From Thermotogaceae bacterium (GTDB taxonomy: Bacteria > Thermotogota > Thermotogae > Thermotogales > Thermotogaceae), in contig JALWSA010000047.1 of NCBI GenBank assembly GCA_026993805.1, forward strand, positions 1 to 47,452: 47,452 nt of DNA, given 5' to 3'. Within the stretch, counting starts at the first letter, position 1, and the number at the start of each line of letters is the position of its first letter. The position numbers were made by a program, and so were the translations under genes. The notes beneath the pieces were generated by a model. It did no database searches. It was given only the letters and a program-made list of their open reading frames with translations, and was not told the origin of the DNA. This document shows positions 2,831 through 22,832 of this stretch, in pieces.

Positions 2831-2906
2831 AGGGGATCAGAGAATGAAGAGATCTCCCCGGAAGATGTCCAAGCTTTGGATATTCCTCTGGGGAGATTAA
2901 TTTTTT
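2831..2906 (+). promoter_or_regulatory. Leader RNA with terminator/antiterminator, copy 1 (putative GlpP target)
   Basis: The terminator stem is ATCTCCCC (2852-2859) with GGGGAGAT (2890-2897), then GGAA/TTCC, then a top hairpin ATGTCCAA/TTGGATAT with a 3-base loop; TAA and six T follow. An upstream GGGGA (2832-2836) can pair with TCCCC (2855-2859), taking the 5' arm of the terminator. The block from CAGAGAA to CTCCCC recurs almost unchanged before glpK. GlpP is known in Bacillus to prevent termination in leaders of glycerol genes when glycerol-3-phosphate is bound; assigning these leaders to GlpP is an inference from gene context. Confidence 0.75.
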
Positions 2907-3023
2907 ATTAAAGAAGCTTAATTTGTTTTGATTTCCCTATCATGCGATTTTCAGGTTTTGTGATAAATTTGATAACAATATAAAGGCAGATTTCGAGAAT
3001 CTCTATGAGGGGAGGGGTTTTTT

Positions 3024-4337
3024 ATGAAGAAGTGGCTTGTTTTGGTTCTATCGGTGCTGGTGGTTCTATCGTTCGCCAAGGTCAAGATCCAGTTCTGGCA
3101 TGCTATGGGAGGATGGAGGATCGAGCTTCTCCAGGGCATGGCGGATGAGTTCATGAAATTGCACCCGGATATCGAGGTCGAAGTTCAGTACACTGGATCG
3201 TACAGGGATACTCTGAACAAGCTCATCGCTGCAGTGAAAGCCGGCAATCCTCCGCATGTTGTCCAGATATACGATATAGGGACACAGGTCATGATAGACG
3301 GAGAAATAGCCGTTCCAATCCAGGATCTCATAGATAAGGATCCAACATTTGACATCGGTAAATTCATGCCTCAGGTTCTGAATTACTATCGCATCAACGG
3401 AAAACTCTACTCCATGCCTTTCAATTCGTCCAACCCAATCCTCTATTACAACAAGACTCTCTTCAAGAAAGCCGGTCTCGATCCGAATCATCCACCAAGG
3501 ACATTTGACGAGCTACTCGAATACGCAAAGAAACTCACGATAAAGGACAAGGACGGAAACATAGTCCAGTCAGGTATCACATGGCCACTTCACGCATGGT
3601 TCTTTGAACAGTTCATGGCTGTACAGAACGCACCGCTCGTTGATAACAACAACGGAAGGACGGGAAGACCAACCAAAGCGATCTTTAACAGTGAGGCTGG
3701 AAGGAGATTCTTCAAACTCTGGTATGAGCTCTCCAAGAATGGTTGGATGATCAACACCAAGAAGGAAGACTGGACCGGTGCCAGACAGCTCTTTGGATCT
3801 CAGAAAGTTGCAATGCTGATAAGCTCCACATCCGATGTCGCTCTCATGGAAAAGCTGGCCAAGGAGAACGGATTCGAGCTCGGAACGGCTTTCCTCCCAA
3901 GGCCGAAAGAGGCCAAGAGTGGAGGAGTCGTTATAGGTGGAGGCAGTCTCTGGATAATTGGAGGACATCCGAAGAAGGAAATCGATGCAGCGTGGGAATT
4001 CGTCAAATTCATGGCCTCTCCGCAGCTCCAGATAAAGTGGCATGAGGGCACAGGTTACTTCCCGATAAGAAAAGACGCCGTTGAGATGCTGATGAATCAG
4101 GGTTACTACGCCGAACACCCGAACCACTTGACGGCACTTCTCCAGCTTCTCCTTTCGGTCCAGAATCCCAACACAAACGGAGCCATTATAGGTGCATTCC
4201 CAGAGGTCAGGGATATAATTGAAACGGCAGTTGAAAAGATGCTCAACGGTGAAATGAGCCCAGAGGACGCACTTGCCTGGGCTGAGAAAGAAGCCACTAA
4301 GGCTATAAAGGAATACAACGAGCTCTACGGATATTGA
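3024..4337 (+). CDS. ugpB: ABC transporter substrate-binding protein, UgpB-like (glycerol-3-phosphate)
   Basis: The 437-residue product starts with a Sec signal peptide (residues 1-18, MKKW then a hydrophobic run ending SFA) and lacks a lipobox cysteine. It shares landmark segments with Escherichia coli UgpB as I recall it: FWHAMGG near the N terminus, PFNSSNPILYYNK, FKKAGLDPNHPP, GGGSLWI and KWHEGTGYFPI. It would bind glycerol-3-phosphate or a glycerophosphodiester outside the membrane and hand it to the permeases that follow. GGGGAGGGG precedes the ATG. The GlpP-like leader upstream supports a glycerol-phosphate ligand over a sugar; a polyol or sugar remains possible. Confidence 0.82.
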   Translation: MKKWLVLVLSVLVVLSFAKVKIQFWHAMGGWRIELLQGMADEFMKLHPDIEVEVQYTGSYRDTLNKLIAAVKAGNPPHVVQIYDIGTQVMIDGEIAVPIQDLIDKDPTFDIGKFMPQVLNYYRINGKLYSMPFNSSNPILYYNKTLFKKAGLDPNHPPRTFDELLEYAKKLTIKDKDGNIVQSGITWPLHAWFFEQFMAVQNAPLVDNNNGRTGRPTKAIFNSEAGRRFFKLWYELSKNGWMINTKKEDWTGARQLFGSQKVAMLISSTSDVALMEKLAKENGFELGTAFLPRPKEAKSGGVVIGGGSLWIIGGHPKKEIDAAWEFVKFMASPQLQIKWHEGTGYFPIRKDAVEMLMNQGYYAEHPNHLTALLQLLLSVQNPNTNGAIIGAFPEVRDIIETAVEKMLNGEMSPEDALAWAEKEATKAIKEYNELYGY

Positions 4338-4357
4338 TAGGAAAGGAAGATCAAACA

Positions 4358-4387
4358 AGGGAGAGGGACGAGCTCCCTCTCCCTTTT
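4358..4387 (+). terminator. Intercistronic hairpin between ugpB and ugpA
   Basis: A perfect 11-bp stem, AGGGAGAGGGA/TCCCTCTCCCT with the loop CGAGC, ends in only four T. Such hairpins after binding-protein genes usually protect the upstream message or end part of the transcripts, which gives more binding protein than permease. Partial termination is inferred. Confidence 0.7.
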
Positions 4388-4404
4388 AAATGGGGTGAGA
4401 GAAG

Positions 4405-5274
4405 GTGCACAGAAAGATTTTTCCATATCTTCTCCTTATCCCTACGTTTTTAATCGTTATCACTTTCATATACTGGCCGGCAGCTTATTCCTTTAAGCTG
4501 AGCTTTTATCGTTTGTCGCCGTTTGGAAATAGGATGATATTCGTAGGTTTGAGGAATTTTGATAGGCTCTTTCACAGCGAGGAGTACATCAGAGCCATAA
4601 AGACGACCGTGATATACGTAGGTGCCAGTGTTATTTTGACGATATTTTTGTCGTTTTTCATCGCTTTGCTCCTTAATATGAAAGTACCAGGAACGCCGAT
4701 TTACAAAGCTCTCATATTTATTCCCTATGCCATATCACCCGCCATTGCTGGAACTCTGTGGTCTTTCCTTTTGAACCCCGTTGTAGGGCATGTGAACTAT
4801 TTCTTCTCGAAATTTTTCGGAATAAGCGTTGATTGGATAACCGCGAAACCGTATGCTCTTTACGCCATCATCTTTGCTTCTGTTTGGAAAGTAATGCCCT
4901 TCGATATAATCTTTTACCTTGCGGGTCTTCAGGATATACCGGACGACATAATAGAAGCCACCACAATAGACGGAGCTTCCGCTTGGAAAAGGATATGGAA
5001 GATAATCTTTCCTCTTTTGTCTCCAATAACCTTTTACCTCGTCATAATGAACATCATCTCTTTCATGTTCTCGTCCTTCGCGATAATCGACGTCATGACG
5101 AGGGGAGGACCGGGAGATTACACGACTACAATGATATACAGGCTGTTCCTGGATGCATTCGCATTCCAGAAAACGGGAATAGCTTCTGCAGAAAGCGTTG
5201 TCCTATTCTTGGTGATGATCGTGGTTACCTTTATTTACTTCTATTTTGGGGAGAAGAGAGTCCACTACCAGTGA
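4405..5274 (+). CDS. ugpA: ABC transporter permease, UgpA-like
   Basis: The 289-residue inner-membrane protein has about six hydrophobic segments and the cytoplasmic EAA loop EATTIDGASAWKRIWKIIFP near residues 188-207 that docks the ATPase. It belongs to the MalF/UgpA permease class. The start is GTG, five or so bases after GAGAAGG. It lies between ugpB and ugpE in the same operon and would form the channel with UgpE. No ATPase gene (ugpC) follows, so a shared MsmK/UgpC-type ATPase encoded elsewhere is expected. Confidence 0.9.
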   Translation: MHRKIFPYLLLIPTFLIVITFIYWPAAYSFKLSFYRLSPFGNRMIFVGLRNFDRLFHSEEYIRAIKTTVIYVGASVILTIFLSFFIALLLNMKVPGTPIYKALIFIPYAISPAIAGTLWSFLLNPVVGHVNYFFSKFFGISVDWITAKPYALYAIIFASVWKVMPFDIIFYLAGLQDIPDDIIEATTIDGASAWKRIWKIIFPLLSPITFYLVIMNIISFMFSSFAIIDVMTRGGPGDYTTTMIYRLFLDAFAFQKTGIASAESVVLFLVMIVVTFIYFYFGEKRVHYQ

Positions 5275-5284
5275 GGTGAAAGCT

Positions 5285-6124
5285 TTGAGGAAGTCCACGA
5301 GGAAGCTGTTAAACACGACTCTTGCGGAAATAGCTCTAATCGCGATCACTCTGGTGGTCTCTATGCCTCTCTTCCTGGCGATATCCATAAGCCTTCAATC
5401 GCCAGAGGAGGTTTTTTCCTATCCTCCCAAGATATTCCCCAAAGGTTTGTACTTCAAAAACTACCTCGATGCGTTTAAGCTGGTGCCTTTAACTCGCCTC
5501 ATTCTCAACAGTTTGATCATGGCCGGTGCGATAACAGCCGGTAAGCTCTTTACGGGAATCCTTTCCGGATACGCTTATGCTAACTTCAGGTTCAGAGGGA
5601 AAAACGTTTCGTTCTTTGCGCTTTTTGCCACTCTGTTCTTACCAGCTGAGACCGTGATGATAGTTCCTCTTTTTCTAATAATGAAGAAATTCGGGTGGGT
5701 GAATACATACTGGGCTCTAACAATTCCTTTCATGGCCAGTGCCACAAACACATTTCTATTCCGTCAGCATTTCTTGTCGATACCTAAAGAGTTAGAAGAT
5801 GCCGCCAGAATAGATGGAGCCACGCCGCTCCAGTATTTAACAAGAGTCCTGTTGCCTCTTTCCAAAGCCATGATAGGTGGTGCAGCCATAATAAACTTCG
5901 TTTATGCTTGGAATATGTACCTTTGGCCGCTCGTTGTCATAATGCAAGACGAGATGAAGACCGTTCAAATAGGAGTGAAAATGCTAATAGACGCTGAATC
6001 GGCGAACAACTGGGGAGTGATAATGGCTGGAACCATTGTTGTTCTCATTCCAACCGTTATCATGTTCCTGCTTCTGCAAAATCTCTTCGTGAAAAGCCTT
6101 GTAAGAAGCGGAATGAAAGGATAA
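5285..6124 (+). CDS. ugpE: ABC transporter permease, UgpE-like
   Basis: The 279-residue partner permease of the MalG/UgpE class has six hydrophobic segments and an EAA loop (EDAARIDGATPLQYLTRVLLP). A TTG start at 5285 is preferred because GAGGTGA ends five bases upstream and the protein then begins with the usual short basic stretch MRKSTRK. The longer reading frame back to 5246 would overlap ugpA and lacks a ribosome site. It is the last gene of the importer operon; the glpK promoter begins 13 bases after its stop. Confidence 0.9.
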   Translation: MRKSTRKLLNTTLAEIALIAITLVVSMPLFLAISISLQSPEEVFSYPPKIFPKGLYFKNYLDAFKLVPLTRLILNSLIMAGAITAGKLFTGILSGYAYANFRFRGKNVSFFALFATLFLPAETVMIVPLFLIMKKFGWVNTYWALTIPFMASATNTFLFRQHFLSIPKELEDAARIDGATPLQYLTRVLLPLSKAMIGGAAIINFVYAWNMYLWPLVVIMQDEMKTVQIGVKMLIDAESANNWGVIMAGTIVVLIPTVIMFLLLQNLFVKSLVRSGMKG

Positions 6125-6136
6125 TAGTCTTTTTAT

Positions 6137-6167
6137 TTGACACATCGTGCGTATTTTCTGGTATAAT
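6137..6167 (+). promoter_or_regulatory. Promoter of the glpK leader transcript
   Basis: Consensus TTGACA (6137-6142) and TATAAT (6162-6167) are 19 bp apart, the same layout as the ugpB promoter. The spacers themselves share little sequence, so the spacing rather than a common operator is what the two have in common. Confidence 0.8.
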
Positions 6168-6188
6168 TCAAGCAGGAAAGGTGAATAG

Positions 6189-6265
6189 AGGGGACAGAGA
6201 AATGAAGAGATCTCCCCAGGGGTGTCCAAAAGAAGCTTTGGGCACATTCTGGGGATTAAATTTTT
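6189..6265 (+). promoter_or_regulatory. Leader RNA with terminator/antiterminator, copy 2 (putative GlpP target)
   Basis: The terminator stem is TCCCCAG (6213-6219) with CTGGGGA (6249-6255), topped by TGTCCAAA/TTTGGGCA (6223-6230 with 6237-6244) around AGAAGC; TTAAATTTTT follows. An upstream GGGGA (6190-6194) can pair with TCCCC. Compared with copy 1, the top stem has a G-U pair where this one has G-C, and a U-A pair where this one has U-G, so pairing is kept while sequence changes. Regulation by GlpP, encoded directly after glpK, is inferred. Confidence 0.75.
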
Positions 6266-6289
6266 AGTGAGGAAACTTTGAAAATCTAA

Positions 6290-8334
<2,045 letters not shown>

Positions 8335-8363
8335 TCTCTAAAGGCGAGAGAGAGGGAGAGAGA

Positions 8364-8398
8364 GCCATATCCCACAGAAGTGGGATATGGCTTTTTTT
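8364..8398 (+). terminator. Strong terminator or attenuator between glpP and the GlpA-like gene
   Basis: A perfect 12-bp stem GCCATATCCCAC/GTGGGATATGGC with the loop AGAA is followed by seven T. Only seven bases separate the T run from the Shine-Dalgarno site of the next gene, so no promoter fits between them. Confidence 0.93.
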
Positions 8399-8418: not shown

Positions 8419-9858
8419 TTGAAAGCAGTAGTTATAGGCGCGGGAGTTTTTGGAGCTCTTGTAGCCAGGGAACTGACGAGATACGATCTTGAAGTGACTC
8501 TTATAGAGAAGAACCTCGATGTGGGATGGGGTGTTACGAAGGCCAATTCCGCCATAGTCCATGCGGGATACGACGATCCCCCGGAAACCGTCCGTGCCCG
8601 ATTCTGTGCAAAAGGCAACGCCATGTATGAAGAGCTTTCCAAAGAACTGGACTTTGAGTTCAAACGAGTCGGATCTTTCGTTGTGGCCTTCAACGACGAG
8701 GAACTAAAAGAACTCGAGCGCCTTCTCAAGCAGGGCGAGAAGAACGGTGTTCCGGGTTTGAGAATATTGGAGAGAGACGAGCTTCTTTCGATGGAGCCCA
8801 GTCTCAATCCAGAGATAAAGTATGCTCTTTACGCTCCTACTGCTGGAATCACAGAACCTTGGATGGTTGCAATAGCAGCGGTGGAAAACGCCGTTAAAAA
8901 TGGGTTGAAACTCGTTTTAGGAGAGAGGGTCACGGGCTTTGAGAAGGCAAACGGCAGGGTAAAGAAAGTTATCACCGATAAGAATGAATATGAAGCAGAC
9001 ATAGTGATCAACTGCGCGGGGCTTTATGCTGATGAGATAGCGAAAATGGCTGGAGTGGAGTATGTACCAATCCATCCAAGAAAAGGAGAATACATCTTGC
9101 TCGACAAAAAGCTTCAGGGTCTCGTGAGAAGAGTCATATTCCCTGCGCCTACCAAGATCTCGAAGGGAATACTTGTCCTTCCCACTGTAGACGGTGGCAT
9201 ACTGCTCGGACCGACTGCAGAAGACCTGCCACAAGATATGAAAGACAGGCCCATCACTACCAGGGAAGGCCTTGAGAAGGTTCGAAGTTTCACGAAGAGG
9301 CTCGTCCCATCTATTGATCTTTCCTTAGCTATTAAGACCTTTTCTGGTCTGAGACCCGAGAGCCCGCAAAAGGATTTCTTCATAGGTGTGAGCGAAAGCG
9401 TCAAGAACTTCGTGAATGTCATGGCGACAAGGTCCCCGGGACTGACCGCGGCTCCCGCAGTTGCGAAATACGTGGTGGAAGAGCTCATCCAAGAGAAGAT
9501 GAAGCTGCAGCTCATGAAAAAAGAAAGCTTCGATCCGCATAGGGAAGGGATAAAGCGTTACGCATCCTTACCGCTCGAAGAGTGGCAAAAGGAGATAGAA
9601 AAGGATCCGCGGGCGGGGAGGATGGTTTGCTTTTGCAACGAAGTGACGGAAAAAGAAATAGTCGAGGCCATAAGAAGAGGGGCGAGAACTTTAGATGGAA
9701 TCAAATTCAGAACAAGGGCGATGTTTGGAAGGTGCCAAGGTGGTTTTTGTATGGTGAAGATCATGAAGATTCTGGCGCGGGAGCTTGGAGTGGACATATG
9801 TGAAATCAGGATGAATTCGAAGGGCAGCTGGGTTGTCAATGGGAAGGTGAGAGAATGA
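8419..9858 (+). CDS. GlpA-like FAD-dependent glycerol-3-phosphate dehydrogenase with BFD [2Fe-2S] domain
   Basis: The 479-residue protein has an FAD-binding GAGVFG motif at residues 7-12, a DAO/GlpA-type oxidase body, and a C-terminal BFD-like [2Fe-2S] domain with C404-x-C406 and C439-x4-C444. It likely oxidises glycerol-3-phosphate to dihydroxyacetone phosphate. The TTG at 8419 is preferred: GGAGG ends eight bases upstream and the protein starts directly at the Rossmann strand, whereas a longer frame would translate the terminator hairpin. It overlaps the next gene by four bases (ATGA). Activity on another amine or hydroxy acid cannot be excluded. Confidence 0.87.
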   Translation: MKAVVIGAGVFGALVARELTRYDLEVTLIEKNLDVGWGVTKANSAIVHAGYDDPPETVRARFCAKGNAMYEELSKELDFEFKRVGSFVVAFNDEELKELERLLKQGEKNGVPGLRILERDELLSMEPSLNPEIKYALYAPTAGITEPWMVAIAAVENAVKNGLKLVLGERVTGFEKANGRVKKVITDKNEYEADIVINCAGLYADEIAKMAGVEYVPIHPRKGEYILLDKKLQGLVRRVIFPAPTKISKGILVLPTVDGGILLGPTAEDLPQDMKDRPITTREGLEKVRSFTKRLVPSIDLSLAIKTFSGLRPESPQKDFFIGVSESVKNFVNVMATRSPGLTAAPAVAKYVVEELIQEKMKLQLMKKESFDPHREGIKRYASLPLEEWQKEIEKDPRAGRMVCFCNEVTEKEIVEAIRRGARTLDGIKFRTRAMFGRCQGGFCMVKIMKILARELGVDICEIRMNSKGSWVVNGKVRE

Positions 9859-11066
9859 GAGTCGATGTGATGATTATAGGAGCCGGTGCAGCTGGAATGG
9901 CTGCGGCTATCAAGGCAAAAGAGGAAGGTGCGGAGGTTCTTCTTGTCGAGCGTGACGATAGAACCGGGGGCATTTTGAATCAGTGTATCCATAACGGCTT
10001 TGGGCTTCACTATTTCAAGCAAGAACTCACGGGCCCGGAATACGCCGAAAGATTCCAAGAGAAAATGGATAAGCTTGGGATAAAAGCAGTCACTAATGCT
10101 TATGTTAAGCAGATTGGAAATAGAGAAGTGATACTCGTAACGGAAAAGGGCATTGAGAGAATAGAAGTGGGTGCTTTGGTTTATGCCGTAGGGGCAAGGG
10201 AAAGGCCATTTGGCAGCCTCATGATTCCCGGAGACAGGCCCTCTGGAATCTTCACAGCCGGTGTGGCTCAAAGATTGATAAACATTGAGAATCATCTTCC
10301 CGGGAAAAGGGCGCTGATCCTTGGCTCCGGAGACATTGGTCTCATCATGGCAAGAAGACTCGTTCTTGAGGGAATGGAAGTTGTGGGAGTCGTGGAGAGA
10401 CTTCCCTATCCCGGCGGGCTTCTGAGAAATGTGGTGCAGTGCCTTGAAGATTACGATATTCCGCTGTATCTGTCCAGCACAGTCGTGGAAGTTAGGGGCA
10501 GGGAGAGGCTTGAGGAAGTCGTCGTTGCCAAGGTTGATGAGAGTTTCAACCCGATCCCGGGAACAGAGAAGGTCTTCAAGATAGATACACTCGTTGTCTC
10601 CGCTGGCCTCATACCACAGCTCAAGCTCGTAGATAGCCTTGTAAACAAGAACCCCACTTCTAAAGGAGTGGCGACATCCAACATAGGACAAACTTCGACT
10701 GATTGGATTTTCTCTGCGGGCAACTGCACCGCCGTGTTCGATCTTGTGGATTATGTGACTTACGAAGGAGAAACGGCAGGAAAATACGCTGCAAAGTTTG
10801 TGAAAGGTGAAGTAAAGGGAGGAAGGATACCTATAAAACCTGGCAAAAATGCAGCCGTGGTCCATCCTTTGTGGTACATCCCGATAGAGCCGCTCACGCT
10901 CTACATAAGGGTTAAAAGGCCGATGGAAAAGGGGCGGCTTGTTGCCGGAAAGTTCGAAAGGGTTTTCGAGGATCTTGTTCCAAGTGAAATGCTCAGGGTG
11001 AGGATTCCGGACAGATATTTGGAAGGCCTTGATGAAATAGTCGTTAGCATCGAGGAGGTGATTTGA
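9855..11066 (+). CDS. Pyridine-nucleotide-disulfide type flavoprotein oxidoreductase
   Basis: The 403-residue protein has an N-terminal FAD motif GAGAAGMAAA (residues 8-17) and a second Rossmann motif, GSGDIGLIMARR, in the middle for NAD(P)H. It lacks the redox-active CxxxxC pair of lipoamide or glutathione reductases. In this conserved trio it most likely moves electrons between the GlpA-like flavoprotein, the DUF1667 protein and NAD. The start ATG overlaps the stop of the upstream gene, so the two are translationally coupled. Confidence 0.85.
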   Translation: MRVDVMIIGAGAAGMAAAIKAKEEGAEVLLVERDDRTGGILNQCIHNGFGLHYFKQELTGPEYAERFQEKMDKLGIKAVTNAYVKQIGNREVILVTEKGIERIEVGALVYAVGARERPFGSLMIPGDRPSGIFTAGVAQRLINIENHLPGKRALILGSGDIGLIMARRLVLEGMEVVGVVERLPYPGGLLRNVVQCLEDYDIPLYLSSTVVEVRGRERLEEVVVAKVDESFNPIPGTEKVFKIDTLVVSAGLIPQLKLVDSLVNKNPTSKGVATSNIGQTSTDWIFSAGNCTAVFDLVDYVTYEGETAGKYAAKFVKGEVKGGRIPIKPGKNAAVVHPLWYIPIEPLTLYIRVKRPMEKGRLVAGKFERVFEDLVPSEMLRVRIPDRYLEGLDEIVVSIEEVI

Positions 11067-11067
11067 T

Positions 11068-11484
11068 ATGACAAAAAAAATCGTGTGTGTCCAGTGCCCA
11101 CTGGGATGCAAGATGAAAGTGGATCTTGACGAGAGCGGCTATATAAAAGCTATCTTTGGAAACAAATGCCCAAGGGGAGCTGAATACGCAAAAGACGAGA
11201 TAAAGGATCCCAAAAGGATCGTTCCGACGAGTATAAAGGTCCTTTACGGTGAGTGTATGCTTGCTTCTGTGAAAACTGATAAGCCCATTCCTAAGCGGCT
11301 TATTCCAGAGCTGATGAAGCTTGTGAGGAAAATAGAAGTAGAAGCGCCGGTGAAATCTGGTGATGTGGTAGTGAGAGATCTTTTTGGAACGGGGGCAAAC
11401 CTCGTTGTAACAAGGACAGTTAAAAGGTCTGCTAACTCCTATAGCGAAAACCGTAAAAGAAACATCTGTAAAAGCAGTGCTTAA
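11068..11484 (+). CDS. DUF1667 cysteine-rich protein, oxidoreductase partner
   Basis: The 138-residue product starts one base after the previous stop and has AGGAGGTG eight or so bases upstream. Cysteines C7, C10, C14 and C34 (CVQCPLGC and NKCPRG) look like an iron-sulfur or zinc ligand set near the N terminus. The DUF1667 core appears to end at about residue 118 (GTGANLVVTR). The last 20 residues are Lys/Arg/Ser-rich and unlike the rest, which may mean that an original stop was lost. It is the last gene before a terminator. Confidence 0.85.
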   Translation: MTKKIVCVQCPLGCKMKVDLDESGYIKAIFGNKCPRGAEYAKDEIKDPKRIVPTSIKVLYGECMLASVKTDKPIPKRLIPELMKLVRKIEVEAPVKSGDVVVRDLFGTGANLVVTRTVKRSANSYSENRKRNICKSSA

Positions 11485-12614: not shown

Positions 12615-15600
12615 ATGAGCGAAAACAAAATAGCCCCAAGCATTATAGACAATTCAAAGGGAAGAGAACTCGTTAATGTAATAAAAGATCAGCTTAAAAG
12701 GTCAAAAGAGGCAAAATTTGCCATTGGATATTTCTTCCTCTCTGGTTTCAATCTCGTAAAGGATGACTTTCCCGAAAGTATCGAGAAAAAACCGTTTCTG
12801 AAAATAGTAATGGGAAATGAAACCACATATCCGACCAAAGAAGAGTTAGTCGCAGGATATAGCTTAAGAGAGATTCTCAAGCAAAAAATGATAGAAGATC
12901 TTCAAAGTTCAGAACTTACAAAAGAACAGATAAGGCAGCTAAAGCAACTAAGAGATTTCATAGCCAGCAACATAATAGATGTAAAATTATTTGAAAATTC
13001 CCGACTACACGCAAAACTATATCTTTTTATAACAAAACCAGAGGAAAAATATGGATCCCCTGGACTTGCAGTGGTCGGATCTTCCAACTTCACCGCTGAA
13101 GGACTCACGAAAAACAAGGAGCTTAATGTATTGTTGTCTTCAAGAGAGGAAGTACTTTATCTCAATGAATGGTTTGATAGGCTTTGGGAGGAGTCCATTG
13201 AATTCAGAGAGGATCTATTAAAGGTTATTGATCTATCCGGAGTGCTCCCGAATAGTCCATATCCCAAGATTGGTAAACTTGTAGATCCACAAACCTTATT
13301 CAAATATCTCGTCTACAAATGGTTCGAATGGCGCGTCCTTAATCTATTAAAAAAGGATATTCTAATGGAATTTCAACTTGTCGGTGTATTGAACGCTGCA
13401 AATATAATGAACTCCTATCACGGCGTAATTCTGGCAGACTCTGTAGGGCTTGGAAAAAGCTTTATGGCAAGTGCAATAGTTGAAGAGTTTTTATATAAAA
13501 AACATCCAGGATGGGTTAAGGAAGGTAAAAAACCCGCAGTTTTGCTCATTTTACCACCCTCGCTGATATCTCAATGGGAGGAGCTTCTAATCAGTGATTA
13601 TTACTTTCTAAGGGGATGTAAAAAGAAGCTCATTAAAGATGCAGGCAATTACAGGGTATATGAGGTATACAGCGAACACGAAGATACTTTAGTCGGCAAA
13701 ATAGGTTTTCTATCCATCGGAATTTTTCAAACTATGAAAGAAGACGAATTGAGGAGATTAGCGGACGAATATGATCTTTATGTTATAGATGAAGCCCATA
13801 AATATAGGAACAAAAATACAAATAGATGGAAGAATGTGAGGAAACTTCAGAAAAAAACAGATGACTTCCCCAATAAATTTCTGCTCCTTACAGCCACTCC
13901 TCTTAACAACTCCGTAGAGGATATATTCAACCTAATAAGGCTATTTGTTGATGATACTTTCGCTCCTTTCATGATCAAAAATATCCCAATAACAGAACTG
14001 ATAAAGAAATATAGAGACTTGAAAAGAGAACTCCATAAGAAAGGGGACGACAGTTTGAGGAGAGAACTCAAAGCAGTTGCAACAGAAATAAAACAGAAGA
14101 TTCTCGATGAAGTTATGATCCTCAGGACGAGAAAATACATCATGCAGCAATTCAAAGATTTGAAGGTCAGTGGAAAACCTCTTGTCTTTAAAGACCCGAA
14201 ACCCTATAGCTTGGATTATGAACCATTTTATACGGAAAGATACAGAAAACTCATTTCCAAAATAGGAGAGGCTTTAGAAAAAATCACATTCGAACACACT
14301 AAACTATACGGAACGAGGTATGTAGTATTTGAAGAAGACACAACCGAGGGAGAGGATGAAAAGAAGGCTTATATATATGTGGAAGTATCTGATCTTTTCA
14401 AGCTACTTTTGGGAAAAAGACTCGAAAGTAGCATATACGCTTTTGAAACCACCCTTAGAAGAATATATGAAAAAGAGAAGATATTCTACACTTTGTTCAA
14501 GGCCCGTATTAACGCTATCTTAGGTCACGATGGGCTCTTGGAGCTAATAAAAGAAGCTCTTGAAAGGGCTAAGATAGATAAAGAGCTCGAAGAAATACAG
14601 GAAGAGTACAACATCGAAGAAGAAGATCGTGAAACATGGTTTGACAGAGTTGTCAAAGTCCTTCTTGAGTACGCGGAAGAAATGAAAGAGGAAGGGAAGG
14701 ACTACACCGAGATAGAACTTTTGAAATTAGGTATGAAAAGAGTTCTTGATAATTTGGAAAATGATCTAAAGGCGATGGACAATATCTTTTCAGAACTGGA
14801 TAGACTAAAAGAGTCGAAAAATGGAGGTTATAAAGTCCTTGGCAAGATCCCAAAAGAACAGGAAGATATCGTTGACCTTCCCATTTACTCTTACAGCAAC
14901 GATCCAAAACTCGAGGCTTTAAAGCAAATTTTGGGCAATCCCTTATTTAAATCTGAAGCCTTAAAAGACATACCATCGCTTAATGGCAAAAAAGTGATCA
15001 TATTCACACAGTACAAAGACACCGCATATTATTTGTATCACAACCTTTTGCATTGGATAGAAAACGAGGCGGATCTTCACACATGGCTCAAGGATCCGGA
15101 GAGGAATAGGGTTAAAATCGGTCTTGTGACTGGAGACACTGATACCTCCGCGAAAATCAATTATCTCAAAAGGTTCGCACCTTGGGCGAATAATGGAGAG
15201 GAAGAAATTCAAAAATTCGGGGAAATAGAAATACTCATTTCCACAGATGCTTTGAGTGAAGGGGTTAACCTGCAGGATGCTGACGCTGTTATAAACTTTG
15301 ATCTCCCCTGGAACCCAATGGTAATTGTCCAAAGGGTAGGGCGTGTAAATAGAATAGGAAATGAAAAAGATGTGTATGTTATAAACTACTTACCATCAAA
15401 AGAAGTGGAAATCATAGTCGGCATTTTAAAAAAACTCCAGGAGAAGATAAAAGATATCACTTTAATAGTAGGTAAGGATGTCAGAATACTAACCTCAGAA
15501 GAAGAGGTTAACATTGAAACTTTCGGAGAGAAGATAAAAGACATTTCAAAACTCTCTGTGACGGACCTTGAAGAATATGGTATTTCAGAAGATTTCAAAC

Positions 15601-16298
15601 AATTCATACCAAAGGGAATACCTCCAGAGCAGATGGATGAGTACAAACTCTTGAACATAGTCCAATATGAACTGGGATATTCTCCACAGGATTTCGAAGA
15701 TGTAATAAAAATGGATGATGGTCCTTATTACTCATTTATAGAAGGTGAAGATAAACTCATAAGCATTTACGAATTCTACCGAGGCAGACATAAGATAATG
15801 AAAAAGATAATGAGCATTTCAAAAAATGGAGATATCAAATACGAAACCCCACTTGTCTTTCTCAACCTCATAAAAAGAAGAGAAAAGAATCCATGGAAGA
15901 TAGAGAACGCAATAGAGAATTTAAAGGAAATGAAAGATAAAACAGGAGAAATAGTTGAAGATCTCAAAGAGAAATACCAGCAGGAACAAAAAGGCTTCTT
16001 ATATAATCTATACAATGCCCTTCTTGCTGAAAGAGAAAAGGCGAGAACTATTGAAAGGGAGTTTAAAGTAATCATGAACACGCTTCAAACAATATCGCAT
16101 TACTCCTATTCTCGAGAGATCAAATCTCTTCTTCTGGAGGAAGGAATTGTTGAGGAATCAAACAGAAAAAATGTGATAATCAAAGATTTCCAGAAAACCG
16201 TCGAAACTCTTTATCAATTCTTCAAAGCTAAAGGACTCAGTGATATAGAATCCCTGAAGATACGGGTAAAGCATTTGGGGTGGTACTATGAAATCTAA
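12615..16298 (+). CDS. Defence helicase: phospholipase-D-like nuclease domain fused to SNF2 helicase
   Basis: The 1227-residue protein has an N-terminal PLD domain with H132-A-K134 (RLHAKLYLF) and [10 protein letters not shown], then a superfamily-2 SNF2-like helicase: Walker A GLGKS with K281, DEAH at 392-395, LLTATPLNN, and C-terminal motifs including [12 protein letters not shown] and [10 protein letters not shown] (about 906-915). It is probably a DNA translocase with an attached HKD-type nuclease or DNA-binding module. It overlaps the methylase gene by 11 bases. Such proteins occur in DISARM-like, Hma and related restriction systems. GAGAGGTG precedes the ATG. Confidence 0.88.
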
Positions 16299-19200
16299 TG
16301 TAAAGAAAGTAATAGAAGAGAGCTTGAAAGGTTATAAAAGTAAAACGATAAGAATTTTTAATAAGGGGTATACATTATATGTAGTACCTGAACTGTGTGA
16401 TGAAGACATTAATGTTTTTGAAGGTTTCTTACTTGCCGAAGTAGAAAGCAAAGAAGAACTCACAAACCTCAGGAGCAAATATCGGCCCCCGGTAAGTGGT
16501 TATACTCCAAGAATTGGTTTGATATTCTACGATGGCCATCTTCTCATAAAGGATTACAGGCGGGACAAGCATATTGTAAAGACTCTTAGAAAGATAAACA
16601 AAACATTTATCAATAAACTAAAAAAAGCCTTAACACAAGCAACCAGGGAGAATTTGGAGAAATTATTCGACAGAACCGATGTTATCGAGGAGTTTTACAT
16701 CCTTTTCAAAAAATCACGAGAATATCTGCTAAGGAATGTAACCGGTATCTCAGATGAGAAAAGAAGAGAAGAATTCGTCGACAACTTCATGATGCAAATG
16801 CTTACTTTGTGGTATCTGCAGGAAAAGGGATTTTTCAACAACGACACGAAGTACTTCATAAATAAATTCAAGGAGCTAAAGCAAGAGAAACTATTTTCTA
16901 AGGAGTTCAAAAACTACTATGAATTTCTCACATACTTCTTTGATAAGATAAGCAACAACATTGGAAAGCAATACTATGAAGACGATAAAGTGGGAAAAGT
17001 TGTAGTTGTCGGACCAGCTATATTTATAAATGGAGAACGAACTGAAGCTATATCCATCCCTGATAAATGTTTCTACAAAGAAGGCTTAACGGATATTCTA
17101 ATAAACACGCCTCCCAAGAAAGTAGGAGAAGAAGTTCCGCTTTTGAATCTCTTTGAAAGCAGAGACTGGACAGAGGGAGACATTGATGAGTTCGTCCTTG
17201 GAGCACTCTATGAAAAGCTGATGACCTACGATGAAAGAAAAAAGACAGGCTCATATTACACACCTGGGGAGATAACATCGTACATCTGCAAAAACACCAT
17301 AGAACCGTATCTCCTGGATAGAGTTAATGAAAAATTCAACGAGAATTTTAAAACAATAGATCAGGCAGTTGAAAGCAACAGCAAAGAAGTCCTTTTATAT
17401 CTCTTCGAACAGCTCAAAGAGATAAAAATTCTTGACCCAGCTGTTGGTTCAGGGCATTTTCTTGAAAGTGCTATAAATGTACTTCTCAATATCTATGAGA
17501 AAGTCTGGGAGAAAACCAGAGAGATAGGCTTAAAGAAAGGCCTCACAATTTTAGCATCTAACGAGAAGGGAGAAATTGAAGAGATTGAACTGTTGAGCAT
17601 TAGCGACGAAGAGAAGTTCCGCCTCCTTGTGAAGTTCTTTATCATCCTTTCAAAGAACATCTACGGTGTGGATATAAATCCTACTGCCCTTAAGGTTGCA
17701 AGAGCAAGGCTATTTCTCACTCTGGCAAAACATTTCAAAGCGAGCAAGAAAGAGGAAAACTTCGTCAGGTTTCCAAATGTTCACTTCAATCTGAGAGAAG
17801 GCAATTCGCTTATCGGATATGTCAAACCTGGAAAAGAAAGGTCGAAAAACCTGACTCTATTCGACTTTGTAAAGGAAGAAACAACAGGCTACATCGTTGA
17901 AAAAATAAAAGTTGTCGCTGAGCTAAGGCAATATCTTGAAAAAATATTCAGAAACCTGAATATAGACAGAGATATCGTAAAAGAAATAGAAAAGCTCAAT
18001 GAAATCCTTTCAAAAAAAGCAATCACCTGGAAAGATTTCGAAAAAGTCCTGAGGACGAAGGAAAAGCTCGTAAAGATTCTAATAGCATCCCTTAACTCTC
18101 AATATGCCGTGCCTTTGAATGAGCTTTTAAGGGAAATTACGGATTTATTCAATCAAAAATTGGATGAGAAATTTGCTGGAGAACATAACATCGACCTTGA
18201 AAAACTCAAAAAAACGAAGGCACTTGCATGGGAAAGGAAAATGTTCCACTGGTTCTTTGAGTTTCCTGAGGTGTTTTTGGATAGAGGCGGATTTGATGTG
18301 GTGGTAGGGAATCCACCGTATGGTAGGTTAAAGCAGTTAATTGAAGATAAGAAAGAAAAGTATTTTCTCTCTTCTATTTACGGCAACCTTTACTCACATC
18401 AGGTAGGGAACCTCAACCTCTATAAATTGTTTTTAGAAAGAACCTATAACCTACTGGGAGAGAAAGGCTATTTCTCAATGATATTTCCATCATCTTTTTT
18501 GGGAGAAAATGACTCTAGAGAGCTAAGAAAACTGTTCTTTGAAAACACGGAAGTAAAGAGGATTCTTGAATTTCCAGAAAGGACACGGGTTTTCATAGGT
18601 AACACCCAGGCAGTTTGTATCCTATTCTATAGTAAAAGAAGGGAGGAAGACTACTTAATTAAAATAAAAACAAATATAAGCCGAGAGGAAAAGATGGCTC
18701 TTTCCTCGCTCGAATTTTTAGAAATAAGGAGAAGCGAACTGAAATCACTAACTGGCGATGATTACAGAATACCTTTGTTCTACAACCCCAAAATAGAATG
18801 GGAAATTTTGAAGCACATTTCAAAATACCCACCGTTTAAGGGCACTGCTGAGATCCCGCCAGTTGGTGAGATAGGAGTAGGACATTTAGATGAAACATTT
18901 GATAGAGAATTTATGAGTGATGAGTCAGGAGATGATTTACTTATCAAAGGAATACATCTTGACAGGTATTTCGTGAATTTAGACCCCAACGGGCCTAAGC
19001 CAAGATGGATTGTAAATAAGAAAAAGTTTTTTGAAAAGAAGCCATCTGCTAAGGTTGTCGTTGATGCTATGCCTAAAATCATAGGCAAAGAAGTCCAGAA
19101 TATGGCGCTTCGTCTTAGATTGAATTTTACGATATTGTATAATCCTTATGTACTTACTAACACAATAAGGTACATTTTGGTAACAAGCACCGATTTAACC

Positions 19201-19701
19201 TTGGAGTATATGATCGACGTACTAAATTCATCATTACTTAATTGGAGATTTAAACTATTTTCTTTGACAAACCACATTAAAAAGTATGAAATTGAATCTC
19301 TTCCTATTCCTCGAATCTCAAAAGATAAGCAAAAACCTTTTATCATTCTCGCCAAATACATGCTCTTCCTCAAGCAATATCAGAACTACTTCGCAAAGGG
19401 TGATGATCATCTCAGATACATCATTGATTACTTTGACAATCTCATAGATTGTCTTGTTTACGAACTATATCTTGGTGATGTAGTAAAGATTCCCATAAGG
19501 CAATTTGTTGAGAATAAACTTGTGGATATAGAACTTCCTGAAAATCTTCTTGAATTTCCTGAAAAAGATAGAGAAAGACCACTTAAAACTATTAAAGATG
19601 TATTTGAAAGCCTTGAGAGTGATAAGAAATTAAATGAAAACCTTTACCTAATAAAATTGCATCCATGGATTAAGGCGATATATGAATCTCTGGGGAGATA
19701 A
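16288..19701 (+). CDS. Eco57I-like N6-adenine DNA methylase of a defence system
   Basis: The 1137-residue protein has an N-terminal region of unknown fold, the GSYYTP segment from residue 321, SAM motif [10 protein letters not shown] from residue 383, [16 protein letters not shown], and the catalytic NPPY at 675-678 that marks an N6-adenine methylase. Some 290 residues separate motifs I and IV, as in Eco57I/type IIG-like enzymes, and the C-terminal third resembles a target-recognition region. No confident PD-(D/E)XK nuclease motif is seen. It is sandwiched between the helicase and ATPase genes with an 11-base overlap upstream and a 2-base gap downstream. Confidence 0.88.
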
Positions 19702-19703
19702 AT

Positions 19704-21140
19704 ATGACTGCAGGAATAAAATCCCTCACTATCAAAGGATTCAAAGGCTTCGCAAATGAGATAACGATTGATTTCACGAGAAAAGCAAAAAATCTTGTTA
19801 TCTATGGAGAGAACGGTTCTGGAAAGACATCTATTATGGAGGCTTTAAAGATACTTTTTGATTCTGCTTCAAATAAGATAGAGTTAGAAGAGTTTAGAAA
19901 TATTTTCACGAAAAATGAGATTGAAATATCAATAAAAAGAAAGACAGGTGGAGATATATCTCTAAAAACCAGAATTGAAAAGGGAAAAAATGATAAAGGA
20001 ACAGAAAAAGATGTACTGGTTACAGATCCTGATGGTTATTCACCTGATGAGAAAACCTATCTTGAAGCGTTATCCAGATCTACAAGTATACTAAGCTATA
20101 GAAGACTTATGAAAATCTATGACATGAAAACAGATGAAGATTTTTACGATTTGTTTATCAGAAAAATTATGGCTTATTATCTAATCCCACCAAAAAGAGA
20201 AAGAACTTTATTACAAGAGCTTGAGGATCTTGAAAAACTGAAAAAAGAAAGTCCGAGAGCAAGGAAAAGAATGGAAGAAAAGGAGAAATCAATAAAGGAA
20301 GAGATTAATAAAATTTTTACAGAAATAAAAGATAAATGGAATGAATACATAAAGATTTTCACCGGCGATGATATAGAAGTGGTATGTTCTATTGAAAAAC
20401 TGGGAAGTTTAGATTTTAAAGTTAAGTGGAACGGAAAAGATGTCAGAAACATCCTCAACTATTTAAACGAAGGAAGACTCAATGCCATAGCACTCGGGCT
20501 TTTCCTTGCCTATTATAAAAAATTCAATGTATCACCATATAAGTTGCTTCTTCTTGACGATGTTGTTATTGGTCTTGATATGAGTTTAAGGTTGCCGCTT
20601 TTGGAAATAATTAAGGAAGATTTTGAAAAGGAGTATCAAATCATAATCACCACTTTTGATGAAAACTGGTTTAATCTGATGAAAAATTATCTTGATGATA
20701 AGGAATGGAGATTTTTTAGATTAATAATCAGAAACACAGACAATGGAAATTTGCCTTTCCTTATAGGCATCGAGAACAGTGACTATTTAAATAAAGCTGA
20801 GTACCACTGGCAGAATGGCGATTATTCTGCGGCTGCCCTTTATGTTAGGATTGAGTTTGAGAGGATAGTCACAAAATATGCCAAGGAAAGGGGATTAAGA
20901 GTTAAATTCAAAACCAATAAGATTGAGGATGTATGGAATGTTGTACAGGATAATCTCCCAAGATCCAAAATCTTATGTAGAAGAGTTAACACATATAGGT
21001 CAATATTACTAAATCCTGCTGTTCATTATGACTCTAAACCGAGGTATAAGAAAGAAGTCATATTTGCTATTGAAACCGTAAAACAGCTAAAAGAGAAAAT
21101 CATGCGAGAATTAAAAAAGAAAAAGCATCGGGTAGAATAA
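19704..21140 (+). CDS. SMC/RecF-like AAA ATPase of the defence operon
   Basis: The 478-residue protein has FKGFANEITIDF, Walker A GENGSGKTS with K41, a short charged coiled-coil (about 170-215), and Walker B LLLLDD with D285-D286. After the ATPase lobe, residues from about 360 form a separate helical domain with GDYSAAALYVRIEFERI and RSILLNPAVHYD, reminiscent of HEPN-type helical domains, though Arg and His are eight residues apart rather than four to six. It completes the helicase-methylase-ATPase trio and follows the methylase by two bases. Confidence 0.82.
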   Translation: MTAGIKSLTIKGFKGFANEITIDFTRKAKNLVIYGENGSGKTSIMEALKILFDSASNKIELEEFRNIFTKNEIEISIKRKTGGDISLKTRIEKGKNDKGTEKDVLVTDPDGYSPDEKTYLEALSRSTSILSYRRLMKIYDMKTDEDFYDLFIRKIMAYYLIPPKRERTLLQELEDLEKLKKESPRARKRMEEKEKSIKEEINKIFTEIKDKWNEYIKIFTGDDIEVVCSIEKLGSLDFKVKWNGKDVRNILNYLNEGRLNAIALGLFLAYYKKFNVSPYKLLLLDDVVIGLDMSLRLPLLEIIKEDFEKEYQIIITTFDENWFNLMKNYLDDKEWRFFRLIIRNTDNGNLPFLIGIENSDYLNKAEYHWQNGDYSAAALYVRIEFERIVTKYAKERGLRVKFKTNKIEDVWNVVQDNLPRSKILCRRVNTYRSILLNPAVHYDSKPRYKKEVIFAIETVKQLKEKIMRELKKKKHRVE

Positions 21141-21280
21141 TATAAAATAATATAAAACAAGACACGAATATTACAAGCCAGGTAAATAATTTGGCTAAGA
21201 GATTGAGACAATGACACAAGGTTCCGACAAAGAGGAGAAGCATCGAAGCAGATATTATCATTCAGCTTTCTATGCAAAAT

Positions 21281-21306
21281 AAAAATGCAAAATGAAAAGT
21301 TTTTGG
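21281..21306. repeat. Short direct repeat upstream of the OLD gene
   Basis: ATGCAAAATAAAA is followed by ATGCAAAATGAAAA, close to the OLD start. The rest of the 180-base gap after the ATPase gene is very A+T-rich and shows no clear promoter or terminator. Confidence 0.4.
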
Positions 21307-21320
21307 ATGGAGGGTTAATT

Positions 21321-22832
21321 ATGATAAAGAAAGTAACAATTAAAAATTTCAGATCAATCAAATATCTCGAATTGGAATTAACAAAGTTTAACGCCCTTAT
21401 AGGCCCAAACAGTTCGGGGAAATCAAACATTCTCGCGGCACTTAATTTGGTGGTAGGAGAAACATATCCATCAGTTAGAGCATTCAATGATCATGATTTT
21501 TACTTGTATGATAAAGCAGAAGAAATTGCAATCGAAGTTCAATTTGGTGAACCTCTTTCCTCCTATCCCAATGTTTGCGGTTTCAGATTGACCTATGATG
21601 GCAGCAGTTTAAGATACATCGCTGTTGACAAAAAAGGTAATGTCTTAACTTACAAAGATAAACATGGGAACACTAGAGAATTGAATGTTTCAAATAAAAT
21701 GCGAGATGAAGTAATTATGATGTATCTTCCCTTAGACAGGCAGGCACATCAACAAATAACACCTTCGCAATGGAAGATTTATGGAAAGTTATTAAGACAT
21801 ATTGCATCAGAGATAGGCAATGACATAAAAAACGGATTTAAAAGTGATGTCGAAAGGGCGTTTAGCGAAAAAATATTGCCACATGTGGAAAAAATAGAAA
21901 AAAGACTTAAGAATTTTGTAAAAGAGCAAACAGGTTTAGATATAGCTCTAAAGTTATCTATAATAGATCCAACTAACATCCTTAGAGATTTGAGGCCAAT
22001 ATTGAAATATTCTCCTGACTTCGAAGTGGATGTTGAGTTAGAAGGAGCAGGTGTTCAGAGTGCGGTAGCCATTGCAATAGCAAGAGTCTATGCAGAAGTC
22101 ATAAGACAACCATTGATTTTGGCCATAGAGGAGCCAGAACTTTATCTGCACCCTCACGGCTGCAGACATTTTTATAAGCTATTAAAATTTCTTTCTGACA
22201 AAGGCGTCCAAATAATTTATACAACTCATGAGAGAAGCTTTGTAAGGATAGAAGATTACAAGTCCATTTGCATAATTAGAAAAGAGGGAATGAGTACAAA
22301 GGCTTATAGATACAACTTTGATGTTGAGGATTTTGACTCAATAAAAGCTTCTTCTAAATTTAATGAGGAGTTGAACGAGGTTTTCTTTGCAGATAAGGTA
22401 GTTTTAGTGGAAGGACCAGATGATAAAATCGCTTGTACACTGGCATTAGAAAAATTAGGTGTTGATCTTAATAAACACAACATTACAATTGTAGGATGTG
22501 GAGGGATCAGAGAAATAAAACCTATAGCGGAAATCCTCAGAAGCTTTGGAATCGAAACTTATGTTCTCGTTGATGAAGATCCTGGAAATGCTAATACTAA
22601 CAAAGAAATTCAGCGGTTAAGAGAGATACTAAGGGAGGATAGAGTACTATTGCAAAGTCCCTCATTAGAAGGTATTTTTGTTTTTGAAAAAATTAAAAAT
22701 GACTATCACATAAAAAAAGCAAAAAAATTTACAAAAGAAATAGCTTTAAGGGTTCTACCGGATTGGCTCAAGAAAAACGAACCGCCAGAAGTTTATAAAG
22801 TTTTAAAAAACAAGTTGGGCTTTACTGAGTAA
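21321..22832 (+). CDS. OLD-family ATPase with TOPRIM nuclease domain
   Basis: The 503-residue protein has an N-terminal ABC-type ATPase with GPNSSGKS (K34), Walker B LAIEEPELYLHP and H-loop TTHERSF, then a C-terminal TOPRIM domain with VLVEGPDDK (E364) and LVDEDPGN (D418, D420). This is the layout of OLD nucleases and of Gabija GajA. No UvrD-like GajB helicase or reverse transcriptase lies next to it, so it is a stand-alone OLD here. The ATG at 21321 follows GGAGGG by seven bases. The 180-base gap suggests its own transcript. It may add nucleolytic defence to the upstream trio. Confidence 0.9.
   Translation: MIKKVTIKNFRSIKYLELELTKFNALIGPNSSGKSNILAALNLVVGETYPSVRAFNDHDFYLYDKAEEIAIEVQFGEPLSSYPNVCGFRLTYDGSSLRYIAVDKKGNVLTYKDKHGNTRELNVSNKMRDEVIMMYLPLDRQAHQQITPSQWKIYGKLLRHIASEIGNDIKNGFKSDVERAFSEKILPHVEKIEKRLKNFVKEQTGLDIALKLSIIDPTNILRDLRPILKYSPDFEVDVELEGAGVQSAVAIAIARVYAEVIRQPLILAIEEPELYLHPHGCRHFYKLLKFLSDKGVQIIYTTHERSFVRIEDYKSICIIRKEGMSTKAYRYNFDVEDFDSIKASSKFNEELNEVFFADKVVLVEGPDDKIACTLALEKLGVDLNKHNITIVGCGGIREIKPIAEILRSFGIETYVLVDEDPGNANTNKEIQRLREILREDRVLLQSPSLEGIFVFEKIKNDYHIKKAKKFTKEIALRVLPDWLKKNEPPEVYKVLKNKLGFTE

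Follow-up and report, generated by a model that had tools for sequence, protein, structure and literature searches.

Genes and leaders at the locus

The subject of this study is a 47,452-nt contig of a Thermotogaceae bacterium (JALWSA010000047.1, assembly GCA_026993805.1; the whole stretch is referred to below as the window). It carries genes for a Ugp-type ATP-binding cassette (ABC) importer, glycerol kinase, the regulator GlpP, and an oxidoreductase operon beginning with glpO. Leaders lie upstream of ugpB, glpK, and glpO, and we examine them here as candidate RNA switches operated by GlpP in response to glycerol 3-phosphate (G3P). The relevant features, all on the forward (+) strand, are as follows.

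2782-2812, +: promoter of ugpBAE (TTGACA, 19 nt, TATAAT; from the sequence)
2832-2859, +: antiterminator hairpin of the ugpB leader (arm1 GGGGA, tandem core AGAGA-ATG-AAGAGA, arm2 UCCCC)
2851-2906, +: terminator of the ugpB leader (two-part stem, U-rich tail; from folding)
3024-4337, +: ugpB-type substrate-binding protein (domain/family profile searches)
4405-5274, +: ugpA-type permease (profile searches)
5246-6124, +: ugpE-type permease (profile searches)
6137-6167, +: promoter of glpK-glpP (TTGACA, 19 nt, TATAAT; from the sequence)
6190-6217, +: antiterminator hairpin of the glpK leader (GGGGA / UCCCC, core AGAGA-AATG-AAGAGA)
6213-6266, +: terminator of the glpK leader (from folding)
6302-7792, +: glpK, glycerol kinase (TIGR01311 score 787 bits, cut-off 590)
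7747-8334, +: glpP, regulator of the G3P-responsive antiterminator family (PF04309; PDB 3kts, 1vkf)
8345-8398, +: third leader, upstream of glpO (GA-rich core 8345-8362, abutting strong terminator 8363-8392, T run; arm1 weak)
8419-9858, +: glpO/glpA-like FAD oxidoreductase with a Fer2_BFD domain, first gene of the third GlpP-type operon
9855-11066, +: second FAD/NAD oxidoreductase of the glpO operon (profile search)
11068-11484, +: DUF1667 protein of the glpO operon (profile search)

The leaders that the initial annotation had placed before ugpB (2831-2906) and glpK (6189-6265) are indeed located there, each about 20 nt 3' of a TATAAT box. The 19-nt spacing of the ugpBAE promoter is beyond the 16-18 nt range used in the promoter scan. 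Both leaders have the same layout: GGGGA, the core AGAGA-ATG-AAGAGA (AATG in the glpK leader), UCUCCCC, a long two-part stem closing with GGGGA, and a U-rich run. The block CAGAGAA(A)TGAAGAGATCTCCCC, which had been described as shared, is present in both, and the differences in the top stems (G-U versus G-C and U-A versus U-G) keep the pairing as described. The 17-mer AATGAAGAGATCTCCCC has 2 exact copies in the 1.69-Mb genome, namely those in the ugpB and glpK leaders; each of the remaining matches of this search carries 3 mismatches. A reversed control likewise gave 2 matches.

Folding of the ugpB and glpK leaders bore out the proposed terminator and the competing upstream GGGGA arm. The folding energies of the terminators are about -28 to -29 kcal/mol, and those of the competing GGGGA hairpins are -8.4 (ugpB) and -5.9 (glpK) kcal/mol. 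When growing transcript prefixes were folded, the GGGGA hairpin appeared earliest and was replaced only once the last GGGGA strand had been made. These two leaders are real conditional terminators. The third element (8345-8398) and the tandem RGAGA core are additional to the two leaders of the initial annotation. A scan of the leaders against Rfam found no family above its gathering score, tRNAs being the only matches.

The glpP gene directly follows glpK, as previously noticed, and overlaps its 3' end. Its product matches the G3P_antiterm domain (PF04309) over 173 of 173 positions with 207 bits (curated cut-off, 27), and its relatives of solved structure are PDB 3kts and 1vkf. It is the only PF04309 gene in the genome, and Thermotoga-type genomes possess two. 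In one of these (G090), the second, divergent PF04309 gene lies 3' of the glpO operon (L055:14634-15122), and the same place is occupied in G091-G094. The T. maritima chain 1vkf matches this divergent paralogue of G090 (E = 1e-100) and not the glpK-linked GlpP; the solved Thermotoga structure thus seems to be the paralogue. The match is almost perfect, and G090 belongs to the same family as the window's genome, in keeping with an assignment of the organism to Thermotogota.

A common element with covarying arms

Comparison of the leaders yields the consensus arm1 - RGAGA-N(2-6)-RGAGA-(AA) - arm2, in which arm2 doubles as the 5' strand of the terminator. The arms differ by lineage (GGGG/CCCC, AUAUGGU/ACCAUAU, GUGGU/ACCAC, GGCU/AGCC, and GGGUC/GACCC) with their complementarity kept, and the third strand, that of the terminator, follows these lineage changes. 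A descriptor was formulated that required two RGAG/GAGA repeats flanked by complementary arms, the second of which had to form part of a terminator. It gave 29 matches in the 40 glpP loci of the phylum (523 kb) and 0 in five shuffles.

In an alignment of 59 distinct sequences, 90.9% of the cells were paired, a value biased towards pairing because the alignment had been fitted to the model. There were 52 double-changed cells versus 25.8 in shuffles, none of 500 shuffles attained the observed score, and pairing dropped to 21-48% in slid registers. As an independent check, 150 elements were gathered by core and terminator with arm1 not required. Of these, 114 had an arm1 of 4 bp or more, compared with 22 when the upstream sequences were shuffled and at most 85 when they were swapped between elements. 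A simpler pattern (GGGGN{1,6}AGAGAN{2,6}AAGAGA) was rejected as unspecific; over the phylum, its matches outside glp and ugp loci were about as frequent as those of a reversed control.

Distribution of the element and of glpP

Two covariance models, R1 and R2, were built separately; a MAFFT alignment of all arm types had put the arms out of register. R1 was trained on 13 hairpins from glpO, glpK, and hydrolase leaders, with no ugpB leader among them. The sample comprised 103 genomes of the phylum, 79 with PF04309 over the cut-off and 24 without. Strong R1 matches (E up to 1e-3) were found in 47 of the 79 genomes with glpP and in 1 of the 24 without (Fisher 5e-7; the Fisher p-values are optimistic, as the genomes tested are related). 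The search that the initial annotation had suggested therefore gave matches nearly confined to glpP genomes. Their placement was also as anticipated: the genes behind them are mostly glpO, and also glpK, glpP, glpF (MIP family), ugpB, and a UgpA-like permease gene. Leaders of ugpB were thus recovered genome-wide by a model trained without them. We discarded as chance, being within coding sequence or lacking a terminator, two R1 matches in the window's own genome (C64:9288 and C17:9612) and those in G001 (C22), G054, and G061 (C6, C2).

Further R1 targets were a membrane-anchored alpha/beta-hydrolase and, once each, an iron alcohol dehydrogenase and a PHO4 permease. The hydrolase (600-690 aa) stands behind a GlpP-type leader at L063:5269-7062, L060:5817-7607, L218:615-2423, L247:655-2457, and L253:51-2111. 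In some genomes the leader-bearing gene is directly upstream of glpK, and its product is possibly a lipase or esterase freeing glycerol. The elements in L215 (G035:C24) and L227 (G016:C1) are located ahead of the PHO4-family phosphate/sulfate permease and the iron alcohol dehydrogenase, which are possible further members of the regulon. In genus g27, elements precede a UgpA-like permease gene (L255, L258, and L259). Since this permease is only 34-38% identical to that of the window, a different sugar-type importer may share the control in g27.

The ABC importer as a probable target

The upstream regions of 70 ugpB-type genes besides that of the window were tested. With the window included, leaders were found at 23 of 56 ugpB-type genes in genomes with glpP and at 0 of 15 in genomes without it (p = 0.001). 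Inspection revealed ugpB elements in two more genomes, G096 and G049, that the scan had not found. Two members of the same family, G098 and G099, encode UgpB proteins 83-86% identical to that of the window and have no glpP; upstream of their ugpB genes, the TATAAT box is followed at once by the ribosome site, and both leader and terminator are absent. The inclusion of a Ugp-type importer in the regulon, as initially annotated, is thus upheld by about 25 genomes with the element, compared with none of the 15 ugpB genes from glpP-less genomes. Judged from these comparisons, an ABC importer appears to be under this RNA switch in these heat-loving bacteria, and it is not a known target.

Solved UgpB proteins are the closest structures to the window UgpB. 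The NCBIfam equivalog is by far its best family, with a score of 266.7 bits that is below the cut-off of 411. In Phaeobacter UgpB, the phosphate is contacted by Tyr, Ser, Ser, and Tyr, and the glycerol by Glu88, Trp188, and Arg393 (PMC12718374). All four phosphate-contacting residues are kept in the window UgpB, and the three glycerol-contacting residues are replaced with Asp, Leu, and Ile, respectively; owing to these replacements, the ligand is uncertain. The leader-bearing UgpB of G087 (L250) retains the classical glycerol-contacting residues. The label "Ugp-type" is right for the window importer. G3P is a candidate substrate, but some other glycerol phosphate or a glycerophosphodiester may be imported instead. 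The genome encodes one GDPD-family protein.

Comparison with Bacillota and other antitermination systems

The element is also present in Bacillota. Among 80 glpP loci of that phylum, the descriptor matched 31, and model R2 (GGUC-GGAGA-NNN-GGAGA-GACC) gave 52 matches. A genome-wide search of 28 Bacillota genomes gave 20 matches, 18 of which precede glpD, and this position ties the element to the known Bacillus GlpP system. In Bacillus subtilis, control of glpD, glpFK, and glpTQ resides in leaders that combine a GlpP site with a terminator, and induction is lost when glpP is deleted (PMC9604022). By the description in that report, those leaders resemble the ones in the window in having a promoter, a GlpP site (a predicted one in the window), and an intrinsic terminator in the 5' untranslated region (UTR). 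The targets found here add the ABC importer, glpP itself, an anaerobic-type oxidoreductase operon, and the membrane hydrolase, and the arm sequences are lineage-specific, B. subtilis having been compared by description only.

In the LicT/SacT/BglG systems, a protein likewise stabilizes an antiterminator hairpin (RAT) that has one strand in common with the terminator. In contrast to these regulators, GlpP consists of the G3P_antiterm domain only, with CAT_RBD and PRD absent in a Pfam scan of the regulator, and the element is a loop with tandem RGAGA, whereas the RAT RNA has bulges. Short repeated purine-rich motifs serve as the RNA signal at the terminator for TRAP. The same kind of signal is used by HutP (PMC7430163). 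The TRAP and HutP proteins, which recognize GAG/NAG repeats, are unrelated to GlpP, and only two RGAGA repeats are present here.

Mechanism and alternative explanations

We consider it very probable that the three leaders act as switches of transcription antitermination under the control of GlpP. This reading rests on the elements themselves, the competing folds, the covariation of the arms, the conservation in two phyla, the near-confinement to glpP genomes, and the placement before glp and ugp genes. The identity of the binding protein (GlpP), its signal in this organism (G3P), and the site of contact (the core) are inferred. The nascent RNA would first fold the hairpin that presents the two RGAGA repeats in its loop and whose 3' arm (UCCCC in the window) would be the first strand of the intrinsic terminator. 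In the absence of G3P, the hairpin would give way to the stronger terminator, and transcription would end ahead of ugpBAE, glpK-glpP, and the glpO operon. Binding of GlpP-G3P to the tandem core would keep the shared strand from the terminator and let the polymerase pass. Such read-through would create a positive loop, in which uptake and phosphorylation of glycerol compounds induce their own kinase, oxidoreductase, regulator, and ABC importer. In the glpO leader, where arm1 is weak, this role would fall to the core alone.

Some observations weigh against this reading. By scan, no element was found at 33 of the 55 ugpB-type genes in other glpP-containing genomes (G096 and G049 included), and ugp is thus not a universal target. 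One genome, G056, which is 71% complete, bears the element before glpO with no glpP detected. An arm1 of 4 bp is missing from 36 of the 150 core-plus-terminator elements, which indicates that the antiterminator hairpin is not always needed. The arm1-less set includes several Thermotoga-family glpK and glpO leaders with a -10 box ending 3-9 nt upstream of the core, so that the RNA should start at the core. These arm1-less leaders would be expected if GlpP, with the regulator and regulon unchanged, sterically blocked termination through the GAGA core beside the terminator and the hairpin were an accessory and not the switch. We regard this as rather unlikely, since the compensating changes that keep arm1 and arm2 paired in most elements would be unexplained if the pairing had no role. 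The binder might also be a protein other than GlpP or, in some relatives, the GlpP paralogue represented by PDB 1vkf. Two PF04309 genes occur in Thermotoga-type genomes, and G089 and G095 keep the elements with only a paralogue-like gene; the window's genome, however, has its single PF04309 gene within the glpK operon, and we judge this explanation improbable.

A structured leader with mutually exclusive folds ahead of metabolite genes could be a riboswitch with G3P or glycerol as its direct ligand and no involvement of GlpP. This is very improbable, given that the element is nearly confined to glpP genomes, that a loop of 13-21 nt containing two short repeats would make a small aptamer, that Rfam has no match, and that the known Bacillus leaders require GlpP (PMC9604022). 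Terminators in 5' UTRs are common in general, and the leaders could in principle be plain constitutive attenuators or unregulated terminators. We consider this extremely improbable; the elements are limited to one pathway, their core is common to two phyla, the competing arm covaries, and they are lost along with glpP.

Beyond the GlpP-dependent switches proposed for the three leaders, we tentatively put forward a broader view, whose chances we rate at slightly below even. A common GlpP element, in which two RGAGA repeats are set against a terminator strand, would operate in Thermotogota and Bacillota in two forms, one with the antiterminator hairpin and the other with the core at the RNA 5' end, and would have brought into the glycerol regulon both the membrane alpha/beta-hydrolase and an ABC importer whose cargo is a glycerophosphate compound distinct from free G3P.

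Apart from the glycerol genes, the region at 12615-22832 of the window, between the glp genes and translation genes, is a probable defence island. It encodes a PLD+SNF2 helicase (HKD+Snf2 model, 7e-166), a type IIG-like methylase, an SMC-like ATPase, and an OLD/GajA-like nuclease.

Novelty and significance

The one published survey of Thermotogales regulons that was found describes the GlpP regulon as unstudied, and a literature search for a ugp operon with antitermination found nothing. The initial annotation regarded use of GlpP on an ABC glycerol-phosphate importer as new. GlpP control is on record for another glycerol-phosphate importer, GlpT of B. subtilis (PMC9604022), so that the novelty is limited to the ABC importer. 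The type of control is likewise known; the two-phylum consensus, the arm1-less form, and the ABC-importer target are new as far as the literature searched and Rfam extend, and details of the consensus are perhaps contained in older B. subtilis papers.

GlpP is a long-known antiterminator, yet no family for its target RNA was found in Rfam. With the consensus, the two covariance models, and the gene list, the GlpP target can be tested directly and annotated automatically in both phyla. The E. coli ugp operon belongs to the phosphate-starvation (Pho) response. Here, an RNA switch of carbon metabolism stands upstream of the same importer family, which in other organisms is associated with phosphate starvation. 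The existence of two leader forms, one of them lacking arm1, offers a handle on whether GlpP acts by stabilizing the hairpin or by blocking the terminator strand.

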